NCBI GenBank assembly: GCA_035772405.1
Contig: JAYKKM010000224.1
Coordinates: 2,006,501 to 2,070,500, forward strand
Direction of reading: 5' to 3'
From: Chrysogorgia sp. JL179-B06
Lineage: Eukaryota; Cnidaria; Anthozoa; Scleralcyonacea; Chrysogorgiidae
DNA: 64,000 nt
Part shown: in pieces, positions 42,701 through 46,978 of the stretch
Layout: each line of letters begins with the position of its first letter
How positions within the stretch are numbered: the first letter of the stretch is position 1
The notes under the pieces: generated by a model
The model's input: only the letters and a program-made list of their open reading frames with translations
What the model was told of the DNA's origin: nothing
The model's database searches: none
Translations under genes and position numbers: made by a program

Positions 42701-45700
42701 TTAAAAAGCATTATCGTATTCTAGACCATTACAGTATTTAAAAGCATAATCAGGAACGCAGGTAGCTCCATAGAGATCATACTGTAAATGAAACTAGAGG
42801 TGGCATCCAATCTTCATTTCAGTAAATCCCGGGTAACCACTGACCTCTATATATAACAGAGGTCAGTGCGGGTAACCAAATGAACGCCGCCATCTTGGAT
42901 AAATTGGCGGCAAGATAGCACACCCGGATGTAAAAATACGGTGATTGTCGTGAGGTCAAAGGTCGCTCGCGGTTTTTCATGTCTTTTGACAGTGTAGAAA
43001 ACGAAAACCGTGTTGTTTTTTCGAGGTTTTTTGCAAGTTGTGTTGAAACTGCTCATGTGCTAATACACCTTTTTTCGGAAATCAAACCAGCCATGGTAAA
43101 TTCATGCTCGTTTGTACACTGCTCAAATGGCTCACGTCAGCTCACGCCAGATCACGCCAGATCACGCCAGATCACGGACTGCTTTTATCTTTTTTCATGC
43201 CCCAGAAATCGCCAAAGAGCTAATAAGCCTTTTGAATGGTTTGTTTCCAATTTTTATTGTATAAAACAAATTAATTCCATTTTCCCCGTTGGCTGTTCAG
43301 TTATAGACGTCAGACGTAATGTTAGAAACATTAAAATTCTCCTCCTACTTGTGGTCTAGGCAGAAGTCTGGGAGCTGGTAATTGTACATCCGGGTGGGCT
43401 ATTTTGCCTCCAACTGAGCCAATGGCGGCGGCCAATTGGCTACCCGATTTTCCTCAAAGTGCCCCCTCTAGTTTTATTTATTATCTCTATGCGTAGCTAG
43501 CTCCCTATGGTTTTATGACCGCGCGAGAGCTGGTTACTAATTTGGCGGAAAATTTACTGACAATCGGGAAATTTTATGACGTCAGCACGCGTAAAATAGC
43601 CCGAAAATAAACGCCAATATCTTCAAGATGAAGCTTACGCCTTTTCAATTCTATATTTTCAAAAAATTATATAAGATAAATTTTGCTTAATGTTAAAAAA
43701 CATTACCATAACCATCTGAAAACCCTACATTTATTTTTGACAAAAATGTTGCTGAAAATAATTCCCACAAGACTGTGAGTTTTGAAGAAATTTCACAGAA
43801 GGAAACGCGAGAAATGGCACAGAGATGAAAAATAAAAAAAGTAGACTCGTTGTTGCCACAGCAACGATCCTGAAAAGGTTAGATAACAACACAAACGTAA
43901 TTGCAAGAATGTCACTAATCTTAATGGATAATTTTATGAAAATAAGTCACAAGGGGGGAAAACTACGCTTCCTTAGGAAGCCTTCCTTTTTATATTGGAG
44001 AATCGAACCAATGGTTACATTTCTGTAAAACACAAAAATATCCAACTTACTTTAACGATGCCAGCCTTTCCTCTTCTTTAGCCCACGCTTCTTTAAATCT
44101 TGGGACAATTTCTTTTGAACTATTGTAATCACTCAAAGTCCACAAATCGCTGTCAGTTAATGAGCGCCTATAGCCCTTCACTATTAGCCTGTAATGAGTA
44201 AACAATACGAAAGTGAAAAAGTAGACGTTGGTTAATTAGTTTAGTGTCGACGAAGAAGTGGGTATACCTTGTTAACCACCACAACGTCATGCGGGAAAAA
44301 ATATTCGCGTTCTCCTCTGGACAGACTTCCTGAAATACAATATGAACAAAGAAAATATCTTGTGATTTCTGAAGCTTTGTATGTAGGAGAATAAATATAT
44401 ATAACAGACGACAAAATATGTAACCGATGGCAATTTTAGTCTGGATGTGCCAACATCTAAACTTACTCTATTTCTAAGGAGATTGTCTTTTTTTGCCAAT
44501 GCATCAGGAAAATATCGGAGATCCACCTCAACATCAAGGGCATATGAAGGGATATTTCCACCATGAGATAAAACTTTACGACTACAAAAAAATAGTAATA
44601 ACCGATTAAACGTTTTGTAACGTATAAAGAGGCAAACAATAAAAACAAACAGCATCAAACGGCCAGAACTCTAGTAAAAAACAAATTAAATAAAAGGCCT
44701 TTTGGTATAATGTTTAGAAATGTTAAAGTGCCCCTAACTTCAAAAATTTTTACTGTCTTATTTGGAAGAACTTTTAAAATGATAAAATAACTTATTTTGA
44801 AGATTTTCGTTTCTTCGCTTTCTTTTCGAGATATATCAGTTTGTTTGATATGCAAATGTCCGGAATTTACGTCACACATGCAAATGACTTATTGGAGAAA
44901 TGTGTACAGTATATCTCTTTCATTCTTGAAAGATATATAACATTCTCTGATAACTCATTGTGCATGTGTGACGTAAATTCCGGACATTTGCATATCAAAC
45001 AAGCTGATATATCTCAAAAAGAAAGCGAAGAAACGAAAATCTTCAAAATAAGTTACTTTATCATTTTAAAAGTTCTTCCAAATAATTAAAATAAAATTTT
45101 TTAGTAGTTTTACGATATCTGTTCTTGTACTCAAGAAATAACGTTTTCATTCTCGTATTTTATGCTTCTGGACGCCGCCATTTTAGAGCTGTTTGCTCGA
45201 CGGCTCAAACTCGATGTTCAGCGGGTGTTTTTTTATATCAATTTTGACATCATTGAGTGCTTCTCTTTTGCATAGGCGTACGGGCAAAATTTTGTAGAGG
45301 GGGCTGAGTATAACTTGCCCGAATAAATGATGACGTCAATATTACTGAAGAACACGAATTGCCATCGTTTAGCCTAAGCATTATTACACATGCACGTTTT
45401 TCATTAATGTATATGAACATGCATTGGAAACATGTACATTAGGGGGTCCGGGGGCATGCTCCCCCGAGAAATTTATTGAATTTTTGATTCCCTGAAAGTG
45501 TATTTCCTGCAATTTGAGGGCACTTTTCTCGTTTTTGCAGCCGCGGCAGTGTGCGGGATTCGAAGTATTTAATTACCGTTAAAGTAACACAGATTTTCCA
45601 AATTTAGACCGCGTGGATATCTCTCCTGAAATGCATAGAGAATGCGTTGCACGACGGCAGAAGAGAAGGAAGGAAAAGCAATTAGCCACAAAACCAAATG

Positions 45701-46978: not shown

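Follow-up and report, generated by a model that had tools for sequence, protein, structure and literature searches.

The minus strand of a 64,000-nucleotide stretch of the Chrysogorgia sp. JL179-B06 genome (contig JAYKKM010000224.1, positions 2,006,501 to 2,070,500; the whole stretch is called the window below) carries a gene in which an SH3 domain is joined to the N-terminus of an ABCC transporter. Sequence comparison confirmed this SH3-ABCC fusion as real and conserved. The predicted product is almost certainly an intact ABCC exporter that has the SH3 domain and a conserved linker in place of TMD0; it is probably of the MRP1/2/3 type. Architecture and family, combined with a docking or regulatory role of some kind, make up a reading that we regard as highly probable. 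The parts of the gene, in window positions, are:

46692..46978, minus strand: exon 1, ATG and SH3 domain (residues 1-95 plus two bases), ending in the donor GA|GTAAGT
44582..46691, minus strand: intron 1, phase 2, 2,110 bases
44686..46587, no strand assigned: most of intron 1, occupied by what are probably transposable elements nested in one another, with a 30-base inverted repeat (93% complementary) at the ends
44467..44581, minus strand: exon 2, a 39-residue linker resembling that of the SH3-ABCC orthologues and of the paralogue
44268..44329, minus strand: exon 3, 20 residues, the beginning of the MRP1-like core
44051..44188, minus strand: exon 4, ABCC core
686..41991, minus strand: exons 5-27, ABCC core, including the first transmembrane domain (TMD1)
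27558-23341, minus strand: exons with the motifs of the first nucleotide-binding domain (NBD1)
17264-14521, minus strand: exons encoding chiefly TMD2
6848-2199, minus strand: exons with the NBD2 motifs
794-686, minus strand: last exon, with the stop codon

The first-pass annotation had proposed that an SH3 exon with a phase-matched donor for exon 2 lies directly before an intact 26-exon ABCC gene, and both points were borne out. The SH3 exon (46978-46692) opens with an ATG and holds 95 codons and two further bases; ten open codons precede it, with a stop codon upstream of these. Read on its own strand, it ends in ...CAC GA|GTAAGT, and the acceptor before position 44581 reads TTTTTTTGTAG|T, so that the junction GA|T encodes Asp. 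Spliced alignment to an MRP1 sequence (used as a guide only) recovered 25 exons, the first starting at 44323 and the last residue lying at 689, along a path covering MRP1 residues 207-1531; in the final model the acceptor of the first of these exons was set at 44329. Because the aligner accepted GT-AG introns only and would not pass a stop codon, these introns and the open frame across the 25 exons follow from the method and are not findings. The exon at 44581-44467 is in phase at both junctions and brings the ABCC exons to 26. With the SH3 exon, the model has 27 exons in one open frame of 1,441 residues and a stop at 686.

The transporter part has two ABC_membrane and two ABC_tran domains (Pfam), and both NBDs contain the Walker A, signature, Walker B and H-loop motifs. 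Residues 138-1429 of the orthologue P0001 align with MRP1 residues 206-1531; since this alignment starts at MRP1 residue 206, the SH3 domain occupies the place of TMD0 and most of the L0 linker. The 19 sequences of solved structures listed for P0001 at E<=1e-300 are MRP1, ABCC3, ABCC2 and YCF1, which would fit an MRP1-type protein; the tree had no ABCC4/5, SUR or CFTR rows. The TMD0 family PF24357 was not listed for the modelled protein in Pfam at E<=0.01, and the first 150 residues of the model have no hydrophobic window. TMD0 exons hidden between exons 1 and 2 were considered and ruled out, as a repeat element takes up most of intron 1, no human ABCC1 match beginning within residues 1-175 scores below E=26 at any place in the window, and no PF24357 match was found on contig C224 in a search made without a positive control.

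Exon 1 alone matches PF00018 (E=3.6e-5; 23.7 bits against a cut-off of 22.9), and its predicted fold is a five-stranded SH3 barrel. SH3 domains are docking modules familiar chiefly from signalling proteins, and those of the Src family (Fyn, Hck, Lck) are the closest by sequence profile and are among the best fold matches. Across the 13 SH3-ABCC rows that we aligned, and in Src numbering, the binding groove keeps Trp118 in 12, Tyr131 or Phe in all and Pro133 in all, which suggests that a ligand may be bound.

The fusion recurs in other Anthozoa, among them soft corals, stony corals and sea anemones. A search with residues 97-620 matched 4,559 proteins at E<=0.001, and among the best 120 of these 12 have an N-terminal SH3 domain followed by the linker and the core. 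These top matches say little about other animals. Eight other species are represented among the matches listed, comprising two octocorals (Dendronephthya, P0001 and P0015; Xenia, P0002 and P0018) and six hexacorals (Acropora, P0005 and P0008; Oculina, P0006 and P0019; Actinia, P0011; Porites, P0012; Nematostella, P0013; Stylophora, P0043). The subclass was looked up for Dendronephthya, Xenia, Oculina and Nematostella; Acropora, Actinia, Porites and Stylophora are generally classed as hexacorals. The window protein is 69% identical to Dendronephthya P0001; by this value and by the tree, its source is probably an octocoral. With the N-terminus of Oculina P0019 as the query, five proteins matched, all hexacoral and including P0019 itself; this search added P0121, a near copy of P0019. 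A hidden Markov model of the N-terminus gave strong matches to 13 of 121 proteins and a weak one to P0042, and the other 107 gave no match at E<=1; it had been built from our gene model and 12 of the proteins later matched, so that P0121 was its sole new match. Seventeen of the 121 sequences were read.

A second gene in the same genome has the same layout. Searching with the SH3 exon recovered that exon and, on the same contig C224, two copies of another SH3 exon that is 39% identical. Downstream of the copy at C224:2213212 lie a linker exon, an exon with CPKENANIFS and core exons running through TMD1 and NBD1 into TMD2; the junction at the matching place, read by eye, is again in phase 2 (TA|C). 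A chance open reading frame (ORF) is excluded because the order of SH3 domain, linker and core recurs in predicted proteins of eight species and in this second gene, and a fusion confined to one assembly is ruled out by the database proteins. The other copy of the second SH3 exon belongs to a short duplication about 43 kb away (L012:8757-9365 and L013:8728-9336; 609 bases, 99.7%), and a search of the 19 kb downstream of it found no core exon. In L012, the adjoining 638 bases on the upstream side match elsewhere (L015:5799-6436, 99.8%). The 65-residue NBD2 exon has 36 match places in the genome, with full-length matches above 68% only at the window gene and at C224:2099551 (98%). Further NBD2 matches of the ABCC type cluster on contigs C143, C144 and C348. 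Open frames of 301-1057 codons contain almost all of them, a short one with a stop on C144 being an exception, and the clusters are probably tandem ABCC genes with few introns.

SH3-ABCC proteins had been deposited before, and the earlier statement that no ABCC protein with an SH3 domain is known does not hold for the databases, where most are named MRP1 or ABCC3 and the rest hypothetical or unnamed. Precomputed Pfam lists give SH3 families for just three of the 12 (P0006, P0015, P0018), which may explain why the architecture went unremarked. We know of no ABC exporter described as having an SH3 domain. Judged by titles and the beginnings of abstracts, the open-licence literature in PubMed Central yielded no paper describing an SH3-ABCC protein, and PMC6505131 does not contain "SH3". 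As far as these sources reach, the component families are known and their combination is already in databases, and no description of it in the literature was found.

Twenty-four hand-chosen core sequences entered the tree (17 anthozoan, which are all of its cnidarian rows, and seven bilaterian rows with TMD0; P0042 and P0121 were not included). All 17 anthozoan rows group in a clade (100/99) separate from the seven bilaterian rows, and within it the five octocoral rows form another (99/96). The coral rows without SH3 (P0014, P0031, P0032) and the N-terminally short P0007 are placed in the hexacoral part. P0031 and P0032 are MRP1-like hexacoral proteins with an FP motif in their short N-terminus, and either loss of the SH3 domain or shortened gene models could account for them.

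Several results weigh against the fusion as read here, its single origin or its binding function. An SH3_1 match to the whole protein scores 18.2 bits, under the curated cut-off. Residues 1-160 of the model, used as a query, returned nothing at E<=0.001 among 84 candidates; since homologues exist, this search method misses relatives. The database proteins are mostly gene predictions. The TMD0 model gave two sub-threshold matches in the genome (C297 and C360), and because no positive control was run, this search is weak evidence of absence. Partial NBD2 matches of 31 and 33 residues reach 77% and 73% (C360 and C224:2808813). The approximately unbiased (AU) test rejected a single clade of all SH3 rows both with P0007 (p=3e-112) and without it (p=0.007). 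The former value is largely due to the grouping of P0007, probably a shortened gene model, with P0008; the rejection requires that P0014, P0031 and P0032 either lost the domain or are represented by shortened models. Without P0007, the branching order among the hexacoral groups is partly unsettled. Finally, Tyr136 is absent from all 13 SH3-ABCC rows (Phe in two), and Tyr90 is retained in five, the octocoral rows only, and lost in all eight hexacoral rows. These losses suggest a non-canonical groove. Most simply, the fusion would have arisen once, before octocorals and hexacorals split, with subsequent loss or shortened models in some hexacoral copies.

With regard to function, the SH3 domain would lie on the cytosolic side, beside the lasso/elbow region, and serve as a protein-docking module, with a proline-containing ligand held by the retained Trp118/Tyr131/Pro133 part of the groove; binding would position or regulate the pump. 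In some other ABC proteins TMD0 is a partner-docking module, a role that the SH3 domain would assume here. We give docking to an outside partner about an even chance of being the main role. A tether to proline-rich signalling or cytoskeletal partners, as first suggested for this gene, is plausible, with the canonical groove incomplete.

The strongest competitor, which we hold to be possible and clearly less probable, is self-regulation: the SH3 domain would bind the linker or another part of the pump, clamp the lasso/elbow and gate transport until an external ligand or a modification freed it. The linker is conserved: all 13 SH3-ABCC rows have an FP motif in it, six of the eight hexacoral proteins have a class I motif ([RK]xxPxxP) behind the SH3 domain, and PxxP occurs in seven of the 13 rows overall. 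However, the linker of the window protein reads RYFPDAL, without the second proline, which is also missing from three of the four other octocoral rows, and PxxP occurs at the matching column in two of six TMD0 controls. The FP motif is present in the SH3-less P0031 and P0032 too, so it may serve the transporter itself. The full-length predicted model (12 sequences; mean predicted local distance difference test score 57, weak outside the SH3 domain and membrane helices) is too weak to judge contacts between SH3 domain and linker. A still more tentative scenario would combine the two modes: one early anthozoan fusion replaced TMD0 with an SH3 switch, held in cis by the linker PxxP and freed by outside partners, thereby wiring a drug or anion exporter to SH3 signalling, and was kept in octocorals and hexacorals.

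We consider it unlikely that the SH3 domain serves only as a structural cap, stabilising or folding the N-terminus and binding no peptide; the loss of Tyr136 throughout and of Tyr90 in hexacorals would fit, but a mere cap has no obvious need for the exposed Trp118 and the Pro133 that are kept almost without exception. That the SH3 exon belongs to another transcript and merely neighbours the ABCC gene is very improbable, given the joined order in the predicted proteins of eight species, the paralogue with its phase-2 junction and an intron 1 that is mostly repeat element.

The element at 44686-46587 contains further inverted repeats and leaves 104 intron bases on either side, so intron 1 probably measured about 210 bases between the SH3 exon and exon 2 before the insertion. 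Among the inverted repeats within intron 1 is a hairpin element at 44742-45101 (two 141-base arms, 94% complementary and separated by 78 bases). A retroelement (35594-38953) in intron 5 of the ABCC gene has a reverse transcriptase domain (RVT_1, E=4.2e-10) in the ORF at 36499-37677; the two ORFs scanned beside it had no Pfam match. A minisatellite lies 1.7 kb upstream of the SH3 exon (48731-54015; roughly 90 copies of units of about 51 bases, or 17 codons) and has long open frames in several frames. Farther upstream, on the minus strand, are hAT-type transposase fragments (DUF4371, Dimer_Tnp_hAT; 56963-58915). The sole result of an Rfam scan was a weak tRNA match, and a tRNA scan found none.

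A conserved natural fusion of this kind would mean that an MRP1-type pump can exchange its accessory N-terminal module for another. The SH3-ABCC proteins could offer a clean system in which to study the function of TMD0 and a possible link between MRP1-type pumps and SH3 signalling. Such pumps may handle toxins and symbiont metabolites in corals. Compared with ABCC1/MRP1, and likewise ABCC2 and ABCC3, the window protein shares the TMD1-NBD1-TMD2-NBD2 core, whereas TMD0 and most of L0 are replaced by the SH3 domain and a different linker. ABCC4 and ABCC5, to our knowledge, also lack TMD0 and, unlike the window protein, begin with a cytosolic stretch without SH3. Relative to the Src-family SH3 domains, Trp118, Tyr131 (or Phe) and Pro133 are mostly retained, whereas the RT-loop region is longer, Tyr136 is lost in every row and the domain is located on a membrane transporter.
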